Shown here in pieces: positions 18,023-50,694 of a DNA stretch of 64,000 nucleotides. The notes under the pieces are model-generated. The model did no database searches. It saw only the letters and a list, made by a program, of their open reading frames with translations, and was not told the DNA's origin. Numbering within the stretch: the stretch's first letter is position 1; every line of letters begins with the position of its first letter. Made by a program: the position numbers and the translations under genes. This DNA comes from Oscillibacter sp. (GTDB lineage Bacteria; Bacillota; Clostridia; Oscillospirales; Oscillospiraceae). The stretch is taken from the NCBI RefSeq assembly GCF_028693505.1, contig NZ_JAQUVF010000004.1:1-64000 (forward strand), given 5' to 3'.

Positions 18023-18436
18023 TTATTTGTCGAAAGACGGGTTTACATAGTAGACGTTCTTTTCGTTCATCTTGTCCTTTGCCAGTCGAAGCCCCTCGCC
18101 GAAGCGCTGGAAGTGGACCACTTCCCGGGCGCGAAGGAATTTGATGACGTCGCTCACATCCGGATCGTCCGAAAGGCGCAGGATGTTGTCGTAGGTAACG
18201 CGGGCCTTTTGCTCCGCCGCCAAATCCTCTGTGAGGTCGGCAATGAGATCGCCCTTTACCGCCATGCTGGCAGCACTCCAGGGGAAGCCGGAGGCGGAAG
18301 TGGGATACACGCCTGCGGTGCGGTCAACGAAGTAGGTGTCGTACCCGCCTGCGCGAATCTGTTCCTCGGTGAGATCCCGGGTCAGCTGGTGGACGATGGT
18401 CCCCACCATTTCCAGATGCCCCAGTTCCTCGGTGCC
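18023..18436 (-). pseudogene. cotJC: cotJC 3' portion (codons 62/63 to the end), separated from its 5' part by the element
   Basis: It encodes the last 136 residues of the spore coat protein CotJC, a ferritin-like manganese-catalase-family protein: TEELGHLEMVGTIVHQL, DLAAEQKARVTYDNIL and REVVHFQRFGEGLR contain the metal-ligand Glu/His motifs. The track ORF (18460) begins with residues encoded by the element (MAHETSS) and lacks a proper N terminus. The other 62 codons lie at 50509-50694, 32 kb away on the same strand. Joining the two at TGCC gives an in-frame 198-residue protein of normal family length. The gene is therefore interrupted rather than simply decayed: no other lesion is visible in either half. 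Confidence 0.93.
18433..18436. other. Left attachment junction (att core TGCC)
   Basis: To the left of TGCC the sequence (CCCAGTTCCTCGG) is cotJC; to the right (TGTCGAGGAAGTCTC) it is the element. The same four bases occur at 50508-50511. Joining the element ends gives CTTCCGAGTTGC|CTGTCGAGGAAG, in which CTTCC and GGAAG are symmetric arms around the core, as expected of a serine-recombinase attP. Confidence 0.85.
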
Positions 18437-18641
18437 TGTCGAGGAAGTCTCATGCGCCACCAGTGGTAAAAGCCTTGCAGGACAAGCGTTACATGGTTCC
18501 CCAAAGGGTGATTTCCCGACAGTGAAAATTCCGGGTCAGCTGTGTGCGCTGGAGGTTGATCACAGCGTTCGGGGCTGGGACAGGCATTACCATGTGGACG
18601 TGCTGGCGGCCCTTCCGATGGGGGTGAGCAGCTGTGAGTGA
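18437..18641 (+). other. Circle-only C-terminal extension of the serine recombinase
   Basis: In the chromosome this stretch follows the junction and encodes nothing complete. If the element circularises at TGCC, the recombinase frame passes from TTG (50507-50509) into CCT (18435-18437) and stays open to the TGA at 18639-18641, adding 68 residues (beginning PVEEVSCATSGK) for a total of 603. The frame agreement was checked by codon phase. The stop overlaps the GTG start of the parB-like gene (GTGAGTGA), the kind of overlap seen inside operons. Confidence 0.7.
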
Positions 18642-19470
18642 ATTTGTGCAGCAGCTGCCGCCCTCTGCGCTGATGCCCTTCGAGGGGCACCCGTTTCAAG
18701 TCCGGGAGGATACAGCATTCGAGGAGCTGACGGAAAGCGTCCGCTCCTACGGCGTCTTGTCACCCCTGCTGGCCCGACCAAAAGGGGAGGGGTACGAGCT
18801 ATTAAGCGGACATCGACGGCGTCTGGCGGCGCTGAAGCTGGGGTTGGAGACGGTTCCGGTGTTGGTGCGGGAGATGAGTGACGATGAAGCGGTGGTGCTG
18901 ATGGTGGACAGCAATTTGCAGCGGGAAAATCTGCTTCCCAGTGAGAAGGCCTTTGCGTATAAGATGAAGCTGGATGCCCTGAAGCATCAGGGGAGAGCAA
19001 CTTCCCGACAACTTGTCGGGAAGTTTGAAAGCGCTGATTTTATTGGAGACAATACCGGCGAAAGCGGTAGAACCATCCAACGCTACATCCGTCTCACCAA
19101 CCTTGTCAAACCCCTGCTGACCATGGTGGACGAGGGCCGCATTGCCTTCTCTCCAGCTGTGGAGCTATCTTACTTGACACCCGCTGAACAAGCAGAGCTT
19201 TGGAGTTTGATTGGGCAGGAGGATGCCACGCCGTCCCTGTCACAGGCCATCCGCATGAAACAGCTCTCCCGCATGGCGAAGCTGACGCCGGAGGTGCTGT
19301 TCGCCATCTTGACGGAGGAGAAGCCCAACCAGCGTGAGCAGGTGCGGTTGCGAACCCAACGCCTGCAAAAATACTTCCCCAAGTCTTATTCAGCCCAGCA
19401 GATGGAGCAGGCTATTTTGAAGCTCTTAGAGGAGCGCTACCGCAAGACCCACCGGGAGCAGGAGCGGTAG
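18634..19470 (+). CDS. ParB/Spo0J-family partition protein
   Basis: 278 residues. The ParB N-terminal domain is seen in PFQVREDTAFEELTESVRSYGVLSPLLARP, the CTP-binding motif region in LLSGHRRRLAALKLGLETVPV and MVDSNLQRENLLPSEKAFAY (the conserved box with NLQREnL), and a helix-turn-helix in GESGRTIQRYIRLTNLVKPLL. The C terminus is charged. No parA accompanies it. Such orphan ParBs are common in clostridial integrative elements, where they may maintain the circle or regulate genes. It starts GTG at 18634 with GGGGGTGAGCAG upstream, overlapping the possible recombinase extension. Confidence 0.9.
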   Translation: MSEFVQQLPPSALMPFEGHPFQVREDTAFEELTESVRSYGVLSPLLARPKGEGYELLSGHRRRLAALKLGLETVPVLVREMSDDEAVVLMVDSNLQRENLLPSEKAFAYKMKLDALKHQGRATSRQLVGKFESADFIGDNTGESGRTIQRYIRLTNLVKPLLTMVDEGRIAFSPAVELSYLTPAEQAELWSLIGQEDATPSLSQAIRMKQLSRMAKLTPEVLFAILTEEKPNQREQVRLRTQRLQKYFPKSYSAQQMEQAILKLLEERYRKTHREQER

Positions 19471-19531
19471 GTTCGTACACTGGCGCTATACGCCGATACC
19501 CCTTAAAATAGTGGCAAAAGGGGGACGGGCT

Positions 19532-19807
19532 ATGGACTACCAATTTATCCGGGAATTTTACTACGGCAATCTCACGCTCAATGACCGAGATATGCCCCGC
19601 AACTCTGACTTAGGCAAGGCGTGCAACGCCTTCTGCGAGGCCGAGACAACGTTGACCGAAGCACTCACCGGCGCAGAAAATGATGCACTTACAGCGCTGC
19701 TCACCGCCCATTCCGAAATCGTGGGCATCTCAGAGCGGGACGGCTTTTGCAGCGGCTTTCGTCTGGGGGCGCTGGCAATGTTGGATATTCTATCTGGAAC
19801 GGAATAA
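19532..19807 (+). CDS. DUF6809-like small protein
   Basis: 91 residues from the ATG at 19532 (AAAGGGGGACGGG upstream); the track's 19511 start would use a weaker context. MDYQFIREFYYGNL, a central predicted helical pair and SGFRLGALAMLDIL at the end match the pattern of DUF6809 proteins in Firmicutes mobile elements. Function unknown. It lies 14 nt before the TnpV-like gene. Confidence 0.7.
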   Translation: MDYQFIREFYYGNLTLNDRDMPRNSDLGKACNAFCEAETTLTEALTGAENDALTALLTAHSEIVGISERDGFCSGFRLGALAMLDILSGTE

Positions 19808-19821
19808 AGGAGGACGGAAAT

Positions 19822-20052
19822 ATGGAATCTTCATTTGAGCAAAACGGCATTCGCTACATATTGGTCGGCGACTATTATTACCCAGATTTGCTGCCGGACC
19901 CGGGCGAGGATGCGAAGCAGCGGGACCTGATCGTGCAGCAGATGGCCAAGGCACTGGGCGTCAACGAGGAGCTGAAAGAGCAAGATCCCATGCAATGGGT
20001 GGGTCTGATGAACAACCTTCGCAGTGCCGCCCGAGAGTTTTTAAACGAGTGA
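19822..20052 (+). CDS. Shortened TnpV-family protein
   Basis: 76 residues starting at the ATG preceded by AAAGGAGG. EQNGIRYILVGDYYYPDLLPD and the ending KEQDPMQWVGLMNNLRSAAREFLNE match the N and C ends of TnpV, a transposon-associated protein usually about 120 residues. The middle part of the family (the GIWGQRH/LNSYLADID region) is missing, so the gene has an in-frame internal deletion of some 45 codons. Function of the family is unknown. Confidence 0.75.
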   Translation: MESSFEQNGIRYILVGDYYYPDLLPDPGEDAKQRDLIVQQMAKALGVNEELKEQDPMQWVGLMNNLRSAAREFLNE

Positions 20053-20124
20053 TTTCAACAGACCACCAGCGGAGAGTAGGTAAAATTGCCTGCTCTCCGC
20101 TGTTTTTGTTTGGAGGGAACCTAT

Positions 20125-20460
20125 GTGAACTATTTTTATGGCAGCGAAGCGGAACGGTTTGTCTTTTACCGCATTCCAAAAGGGTTAATCACGGAAAAAC
20201 GTTTTGAATGCTTAAAGTGTGAAGCAAAACTACTTTACGGACTAATGCTGGACAGAATGGCCCTTTCCATAAAAAACAACTGGCTGGATGGGCAGAATCG
20301 AGCCTTCATTTACTACACCATTGAGAGCATCACGGAGGACTTGCACTGCGGTCACGGAAAAGCAGGGAAGCTTCTGGCCGAGCTGGAAGCATACGGCTTG
20401 CTGCAACGAAAACGTCAGGGGCAGGGGAGACCCGACCGGCTGTATGTCCTCAAATTTTAG
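20125..20460 (+). CDS. RepA N-terminal-domain replication initiator, truncated
   Basis: 111 residues from the GTG at 20125 (GGAGGGAAC upstream). NYFYGSEAERFVFYRIPKGLIT, then LKCEAKLLYGLMLDRMALS, ESITEDLHCGHGKAGKLLAELE and GRPDRLYVLKF are the RepA_N winged-helix domain of Firmicutes plasmids and integrative elements. Two in-frame TAG codons (20458 and 20467) then interrupt it; beyond them the same frame continues with TADFECPRN and NKNKKNETEG, resembling the usual linker, to a TGA near 20572. The C-terminal domain is gone, so replication function is doubtful. Confidence 0.82.
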   Translation: MNYFYGSEAERFVFYRIPKGLITEKRFECLKCEAKLLYGLMLDRMALSIKNNWLDGQNRAFIYYTIESITEDLHCGHGKAGKLLAELEAYGLLQRKRQGQGRPDRLYVLKF

Positions 20461-48649: not shown

Positions 48650-48817
48650 ATGATCAAAAAAGCGGAGTTTTTAGAGCGTCAAGGGGACCCATCGGCAAAT
48701 CCAGAATTTCTACTGGAGTATCAGAGGGCCGTTCTGCGTTCCCTCCAAGAAAACGGAATTTTGACCAGTGAGCAGATGGCAGATTGCATTTCCTTACTGG
48801 TAAAACAATGCCATTAA
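48650..48817 (+). CDS. Small protein upstream of the serine recombinase
   Basis: 55 residues from the ATG at 48650 with GGGAGGGGAGCAG upstream. MIKKAEFLERQGDPSANPEFLLEYQRAVLRSLQENGILTSEQMADCISLL: helical and SHOCT-like at the end. Small proteins of this pattern frequently precede large serine recombinases in clostridial elements. It could be an excision (directionality) factor, but that is inference from position. Confidence 0.7.
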   Translation: MIKKAEFLERQGDPSANPEFLLEYQRAVLRSLQENGILTSEQMADCISLLVKQCH

Positions 48818-48904: not shown

Positions 48905-50545
48905 ATGATTCGTGTTGCGGCCTATTGCCGTGTATCCACCGACAAGGACGATCAGGCGAACTCATTTGAAAGTCAGCAGAAATATTTCCGGGAGTGTATT
49001 GACCGCAACCCGGACTGGGAGTTGCAGGACATCTACGCAGACGAGGGCCTGTCCGGCACCAGCACCAAAAAGCGCAAGCGCTTCAACCAGATGATTGCGG
49101 CGGCCCGAAGCGAGAAAATTGACCTGATTATCACCAAGGAAGTCAGCCGCTTTGCCCGTAATACCGTAGACACGTTGGAATACACCCGGGAGCTACGCAA
49201 GCGGGGCGTGGGCGTTTTGTTCCTGCTGGACAACATCAACACCATGGACACCGACGGGGAGCTGCGGCTGACCATCATGTCCTCCATGGCGCAGGATGAG
49301 AGCCGCAAGACCTCGGAGCGAGTCAAGTGGGGCCAGACCCGGCGCATGGAGCAAGGCGTGGTCTTTGGCCGGGAGCCGCTGGGCTACGATGTGAAGAACG
49401 GCTGCATGACGGTGAATCCCGAGGGGGCCGCCGTGGTGCGCTACATCTTTCACAAGTACCTCGTGGAGCGAAAGGGCACGCCTACGATTGCAAAGGAACT
49501 CTGTGCTGAGGGGATTCTATCCAGCCGGGGCAATCTGAAATGGTCCAGCGCAACCGTGCTGAAGCTCCTACGAAATGAGAAATACTGCGGCGACCTGATT
49601 CAAAAAAAAACCTATACGCCGGATTTTCTTACCCACGAAAAAAAGTACAACAAGGGGCAGGAGGAACTGGTGATTCTTCGAGATCACCACGAGGCCATCA
49701 TCGACCGGGAGACGTGGGAGACCGTGCAGCGGGAGCTGAATCGGAGGAGCCATCACAATTCCGCCACCGACAACGGCCACGGCAATCGATACCCGCTTTC
49801 CGGAAAAATGAAATGCGGCAATTGCGGCAGCAGCTTCTTGTCCCGCAAAAAGAAAACCCGCTCCGGCAAACCCAAAAAAATCTGGCGCTGCGGCAAAGCC
49901 ACCATCGAGGGCAAGCTCCGCGCCGATGCCCAAGGCAATCCCATCGGCTGTGACTTCGGCCATCAAATCCGAGAAGAGGTGGCCATGGACATTCTGCGCC
50001 GCTCCATCGAGGCGGTGCAGCTGGACGCAGAGGGCGTCATTGCAAACCTGACCCACATTGTGGAGACGGTGCTAAAAGACGCTCAGGATGACGGCAGCGG
50101 TCAGCAGCGACGCTTGGAGCTGGATTTGGAAGCAGAGCGCCAGAAAAAGCAAAAAACCTTGGAGGGATTCTTGAATCAATCCATCTCCAAGGCAGACTAC
50201 AAATTTATGAACGACCGCTACGATGCCGCCATTGCCGGCCTTCTTCAAAAGCTGGACGCCATTGAGGAGCGCCGCAAGCTGGACACCCAAGCAACCGGCG
50301 CACGGCGGGACATCAAAGCCGCTATCCGCAAAATCGTGACCGAGAAAAAGTCCGATAACTTCTGCGGGCAGCTGCTGGATCGCATGACGATTTACGCCGA
50401 CGGCAGGGTGGAGGTAGCCTTGAAACTACTGCCTTCCCGGTGGTTTTTCCTGCTGGAAGGCGTATGGAACTTTCGCACCCAAATGCAGGAGCAGCAGCCT
50501 TCCGAGTTGCCGATATCGGTCAGCAGCGCTTTCAACTCCGGATAG
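48905..50545 (+). CDS. Large serine recombinase (element integrase)
   Basis: 546 residues; AAAGGAGG precedes the ATG. The resolvase domain (about 1-150) has RVAAYCRVSTD with the catalytic Ser, KEVSRFARNTVDTLEYTRELRKRGV and MAQDESRKTSERVKWG; then the recombinase domain (GREPLGYDV... IAKELCAEGILSSRG) and a zinc ribbon (KMKCGNCGSSF ... CGKA), then a coiled coil (about 400-455). The last 12 codons lie outside the element, within cotJC sequence, so integration supplies the stop codon. It reads toward the right junction. In a circle the frame continues for 68 more residues. Confidence 0.94.
   Translation: MIRVAAYCRVSTDKDDQANSFESQQKYFRECIDRNPDWELQDIYADEGLSGTSTKKRKRFNQMIAAARSEKIDLIITKEVSRFARNTVDTLEYTRELRKRGVGVLFLLDNINTMDTDGELRLTIMSSMAQDESRKTSERVKWGQTRRMEQGVVFGREPLGYDVKNGCMTVNPEGAAVVRYIFHKYLVERKGTPTIAKELCAEGILSSRGNLKWSSATVLKLLRNEKYCGDLIQKKTYTPDFLTHEKKYNKGQEELVILRDHHEAIIDRETWETVQRELNRRSHHNSATDNGHGNRYPLSGKMKCGNCGSSFLSRKKKTRSGKPKKIWRCGKATIEGKLRADAQGNPIGCDFGHQIREEVAMDILRRSIEAVQLDAEGVIANLTHIVETVLKDAQDDGSGQQRRLELDLEAERQKKQKTLEGFLNQSISKADYKFMNDRYDAAIAGLLQKLDAIEERRKLDTQATGARRDIKAAIRKIVTEKKSDNFCGQLLDRMTIYADGRVEVALKLLPSRWFFLLEGVWNFRTQMQEQQPSELPISVSSAFNSG
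50508..50511. other. Right attachment junction (att core TGCC)
   Basis: Left of TGCC is the element (GCAGCCTTCCGAGT); right is cotJC (GATATCGGTCAGCAG). The repeat partner is at 18433-18436. The recombinase stop codon lies 34 bp outside. The crossover dinucleotide is probably within GC or CC of the core. Confidence 0.85.
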
Positions 50546-50694
50546 GGCATGGTGTAGCGCTGGCTCAGGTACCGCAATGACGCGCCAAGCTCGCCGTCAG
50601 GTCCACCGTACTGAGAGATGATGATCGACGCCAGCTTGGGGTTGGTCGTCTTAATTTTTACCGGGTACTGCAATTTCTTTTCGTATACAAACAT
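50509..50694 (-). pseudogene. cotJC: cotJC 5' portion (codons 1-62), interrupted by the element
   Basis: MFVYEKKLQYPVKIKTTNPKLASIIISQYGG and DGELGASLRYLSQRYTMPYPELKALLTDIG are the CotJC N terminus; the Glu of DGELGASL is a metal-ligand position of the manganese-catalase fold. In the chromosome the frame now runs on into the element and stops at 50392 after 38 unrelated residues. The ATG overlaps the stop of the gene ahead (TAATG), so translation is coupled. The remaining 136 codons lie at 18023-18433. The track start at 50838 is upstream of the true start. Confidence 0.93.

Follow-up and report, generated by a model that had tools for sequence, protein, structure and literature searches.

Can the integration of a mobile element rewrite the end of its own recombinase? 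This question is raised by an element occupying positions 18435-50511 of the window (the whole stretch of 64,000 nucleotides of Oscillibacter sp. DNA analysed here), whose insertion split cotJC in two. The in silico joining of the flanks at the TGCC core shared by both element ends yielded a whole, uninterrupted CotJC reading frame, and its product was recognized by Pfam as a manganese catalase (PF05067, 9.5e-55). It had been proposed in the initial annotation that the recombinase is longer in the circular than in the integrated state and is joined to parB only in the circle. The rejoined ends, the products of 603 versus 546 residues and the TGA at 18639-18641 overlapping the parB start were reproduced to the base (Table 1). 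The claim that the protein gains 68 residues holds for the 68 element-encoded codons acquired in the circle, but 11 host-encoded residues are lost at the same time and the net gain is 57.

Table 1. Features of the cotJC-inserted element and its flanks in the window
Feature	Positions	Strand	Basis
cotJC 3′ part	18023..18434	-	rejoining of flanks
Left core TGCC (CC 18435-18436)	18433..18436	+	comparison of element ends
Detached 68-codon tail, sharing the recombinase frame when circular only; conserved and under purifying selection in its later part	18435..18641	+	comparison
parB; start overlaps tail stop (GTGAGTGA)	18634..19470	+	joined-end translation, domain scan
DUF6809, TnpV and RepA_N genes after parB	19511..20460	+	domain scan
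55-residue ORF immediately preceding the recombinase, conserved	48650..48817	+	position and size
Large serine recombinase, integrated form, 546 aa	48905..50545	+	Resolvase, Recombinase, Zn_ribbon_recom domains
535 codons common to integrated and circular forms	48905..50509	+	joined-end translation
Right core TGCC; putative crossover dinucleotide CC 50510-50511	50508..50511	+	comparison of element ends
Host-encoded recombinase end (ISVSSAFNSG and stop), antisense to cotJC	50512..50545	+	translation
cotJC 5′ part (start codon side)	50512..50694	-	rejoining of flanks

The domain matches of the recombinase (PF00239, 1.1e-33; PF07508, 9.4e-25; PF13408, 7.4e-8) are those of a large serine recombinase. 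In the integrated form, the 535 shared codons are followed by 11 codons read from the cotJC antisense strand (PISVSSAFNSG), and the stop ends 34 bp past the core; in the computed joint of the circle, the same codons are followed by 68 element codons (PVEEVSC...SSCE), and the stop lies inside GTGAGTGA at 18634-18641, where parB starts. The circle joint was found neither in the window's own genome, searched with the attP pattern of the window, nor in viral contigs, searched with the tail DNA pattern and two attP patterns. A structure model of the recombinase (12 sequences, pTM 0.35), of which the local strand pattern alone was used, placed the last ordered strands at residue 517 and gave residues 517-546 low confidence. 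Since the canonical fold is predicted to end near residue 517 and the core lies at codon 536, the core would fall in a linker and the catalytic part is expected to be retained in both forms; integration would thus leave the catalytic domain undivided, unlike in suicidal integrases. At the sequence level, the arrangement corresponds to the BPs type, with attP inside a coding frame giving rise to two protein forms. Modeled by itself, the tail reached a mean pLDDT of 36.7 and no usable structure; solved structures returned only weak, apparently unrelated matches, and no Pfam or NCBIfam family scored above the cut-off, perhaps because the tail is always severed from its gene in assembled chromosomes. 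The element also carries a sugar-nucleotide/glycosyltransferase-like cargo at 21307-42946 (dTDP-sugar enzymes, ABC exporter, acyltransferase, sulfatase), and no conjugation family turned up when the main ORFs of the window were scanned; on that basis it would not classify as an integrative conjugative element.

The same arrangement was recovered in related genomes. When 301 genomes of the same family were queried with only the tail, four clear relatives emerged, each beside a cotJC fragment and parB, and the right ends of these four bore recombinases 60-66% identical to that of the window. The circles computed for the window, G291, G080, G254 and G210 were all in phase 0, and so were those of five further elements (G193, G132, G709, Pusillibacter faecalis and G272), such that the frame passes through the core in phase 0 in 10/10 elements with both ends read, all of them at the same cotJC site; for G210, G272, G193, G132 and G709 the two ends lie on different contigs and were joined assuming one element each. 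The number of codons before the core was 534 (n=3), 535 (n=3), 547, 562 or 570 (n=2), the tail length 65-100 codons and the length of the circle forms 600-662 aa, and in the integrated forms of the cotJC-site family 11-17 host-encoded residues replace the tail. The ten elements are related and their shared phase does not represent ten independent events; therefore, the weight rests on the whole-codon length changes before the core and on the selection test described below.

The recombinases associated with tails formed a single, fully supported clade (100/100). A profile built from eight tails matched 15 of 401 genomes of the family, from 10 genera, and a sample of 391 genomes from across the class added a single further one; the newly examined left ends sit at the cotJC junction, and in most of them the tail terminates in an ATGA or GTGA overlap with parB. 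Taken together, the ten elements and the profile matches bear out the proposal that the frame runs through the core, and indicate that the predicted product of 603 residues is conserved across a family. Homologs of normal length that end where the integrated form ends, devoid of the extension, had been named as what would speak against this proposal, and the clade as a whole does not behave in this way. Single copies do depart from the pattern. In G303:C112 and G305:C103, the cotJC-site recombinases terminate before reaching the core, but these two fall outside the tail clade in the tree. Within the clade, L132 and G1028 have an early stop; a stretch of about 1.6 kb separates the L132 recombinase from cotJC, and the left end of G1028 still has the tail. 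G301 bears a nonsense codon before the core and has mostly lost its tail, and G302, from a neighbouring clade, presents a shorter, more distant tail-like frame. In G074 the short recombinase is intact, whereas the tail is truncated and has no parB match beside it; the dN/dS of this recombinase relative to its relatives, 0.08, averages the time before and after the tail loss and fits a usefulness of the short form.

Other configurations were observed at the cotJC site. Among plasmid records, a single one carries the tail, that of Pusillibacter faecalis (NZ_AP023421.1; L129, L131), and this record labelled as plasmid bears cotJB, ruvABC, infC and murD, which are usually chromosomal genes. The element of P. 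faecalis MM59 is intact at both ends, and its tail starts with PAVDGQWR. Two tandem large serine recombinases occupy the cotJC end of G272:C234 (L125 488-3951) and of G005:C37 (L174), the second of G005 being internally deleted, while a second, distant serine recombinase adjoins the left cotJC fragment in G1028:C22 (L176 444-2045). In the viral contigs L135 (from ~5543) and L136 (from ~2669), the frame of a cotJC-site recombinase enters CotJC sense codons, so that the element is inverted relative to the others and its recombinase frame is fused to that of CotJC.

Regarding the crossover, the base preceding CC differs between the two ends in G254, G272, G132 and G709. Considering these four and the TGCC of the window, CC is the sole dinucleotide common to both ends in all elements, and it is the putative crossover dinucleotide. 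The best palindrome of attP, which is imperfect, is centred on CC in eight of the ten elements; the exceptions are G193 and G709, and the palindrome is weak in G132. On sequence grounds, crossover at a central dinucleotide within a partly palindromic attP would be as in other large serine recombinases.

The overlap of recombinase and parB, restricted to the circle as had been proposed, was reproduced in the computed joint of the window and is paralleled by the ATGA or GTGA overlaps of most elements. Moreover, the left module parB-TnpV-RepA_N recurs in G291, G305, G254, G210 and Pusillibacter, while parB is broken up or matched only in part in G709 and G1028. In G272 the tail is kept and parB is not directly downstream, indicating that the tail is kept for more than its link to parB. 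A scan limited to σ70-type patterns revealed no promoter-like site in the vicinity of the tail, and parB may have its own promoter. Control of direction in serine integrases is normally ascribed to a separate directionality factor. An ORF of 55-65 residues is conserved upstream of most of these recombinases; its location and length alone make it a candidate recombination directionality factor. In gin this role is filled by GirX, a protein of 6.5 kDa (PMC5595907).

The constraint acting on the tail was specific to the recombinase frame. In the ten aligned tails, frame 0 contains no stop and frames 1 and 2 contain many. The mean pN/pS of the last part of the tail, whose boundary with the first part was set after seeing the alignment, was 0.60 in frame 0 versus 1.23 and 1.26 in the other frames, and that of the whole tail was 0.74 versus 1.08 and 1.13; the mismatch by codon position in the last part was 0.34/0.35/0.58. 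Single pairs were significant in frame 0 only (G291/G080, p=2.7e-7; G272/G709, p=1.7e-7). The first ~27 tail codons, which also contain an attP arm, showed no selection at the protein level (pN/pS 1.02), the values of all three frames being close to 1. Since the frame-0 constraint is confined to the last part, it is the second part of the tail that carries the protein signal, with a consensus of about NV..PGYLFS... and H(Y/W).(V/I)DV.AALP.

These data bear on what the open frame across the joint represents. Considering the window alone, an open stretch of 68 codons is unremarkable, with a probability of about 6% under base shuffling, and might be chance read-through with no product of interest; this reading was rejected by the ten-element comparison, and phase 0 in every element, the stop-free frame 0, the frame-specific purifying selection and the tails found by the profile in further genera leave it hardly credible. 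It is also quite improbable that the tail is a separate small gene with its own translation, whose frame with the recombinase would be incidental. Codon 30 of the tail, a valine, is GTG in 10/10 tails, within AATGTG in nine of them, and could serve as such a start, with selection confined around and after it, but in all ten elements the reading frame continues, unbroken by any stop, across the core and the less constrained beginning of the tail, and no ribosome-binding sequence was noticed by eye close before this codon.

A different reading holds that integration inactivates the recombinase, as in archaeal suicidal integrases, and locks the element until another copy helps. Decayed relatives would agree with it, such as G301 with its nonsense codon before the core, G1028 with its TGA and G005 with its internally deleted second copy. 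Nevertheless, the canonical domains are predicted to end before the core, and the recombinases are under strong purifying selection (dN/dS 0.07-0.18, a range in which circular and integrated states are not separable), so that inactivation is considered unlikely. We are equally doubtful that transcription alone matters, the circle linking the recombinase gene with the parB-RepA module across a tail that is a passive bridge: the overlap with parB in most elements and the conserved module after parB speak for it, but the selected residues of the tail and its retention in G272 speak against it.

The best explanation, to which a probability of about 0.75 is given, is that attP lies inside the element's own recombinase gene and that integration exchanges an accessory C-terminus and detaches the tail together with parB. 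According to this explanation, attP would sit within the 3′ part of the gene, which would be complete in the circle (~600-660 codons) with its stop overlapping parB, such that recombinase, parB and usually the TnpV and RepA_N genes would be aligned on one strand. Upon integration, crossover at the central CC would relocate the last 65-100 codons, parB and the downstream genes to the opposite element end, and the recombinase would acquire a short host-encoded end, in an accessory exchange that keeps the canonical enzyme rather than breaking it. The long form would presumably be the enzyme of the free circle, favouring integration or being otherwise regulated via the tail; the short form would serve the integrated state, that is, excision, probably with a directionality factor; and transcription from the recombinase side would reach the partition and replication genes in the circle only. 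An effect of the tail on the direction or activity of the recombinase, as the initial annotation had suggested, is something we infer. More tentatively, and at somewhat less than even odds, the recombinase would report its own DNA state, with the tail favouring integration, the tail loss suiting excision and the partition/replication module being silenced by the same event.

Circle- or state-dependent expression is known from ICEs and mobilizable elements such as Tn916 and Tn4451, in which transcription changes when the ends join. Joined ends also alter transcription in ICEKp1 (PMC13023037). In these elements it is promoters that change, whereas here the joint lies within coding sequence. Mycobacteriophage BPs and its relatives, which show integration-dependent immunity, likewise have attP inside a reading frame of the element, so that integration alters the C-terminus of the product, gp33 of BPs having 136 residues in its viral form and 103 in the prophage (PMC4557955); BPs switches its repressor, whereas here the serine recombinase itself would be switched, its end being replaced by host-encoded residues. 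The archaeal suicidal integrases of SSV, pTN3 and pT26-2 also have the attachment site inside the integrase gene, but these enzymes are tyrosine recombinases, and integration divides their gene into two portions that are described as inactive, while the catalytic domains are predicted to be kept here; according to the review covering them, self-disrupting recombinase genes occur in archaea alone (PMC8371274). The elements gin in gerE, skin in sigK and SP-beta in spsM are, like this one, serine recombinase elements interrupting a sporulation gene (PMC5595907, PMC4191935, PMC5025042), which becomes whole again after excision, while cotJC was restored here by in silico rejoining; the part available for gin reports no re-tailing of its recombinase (PMC5595907). 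The open-access literature searched yielded no precedent for an attP in its own gene re-tailing a serine recombinase, and no match for cotJC together with a large serine recombinase. If the explanation proposed here is true, the DNA state itself would rewrite the end of the enzyme, in a family spread across several genera, and the two naturally occurring versions of the enzyme could be compared to learn how the C-terminus determines direction.
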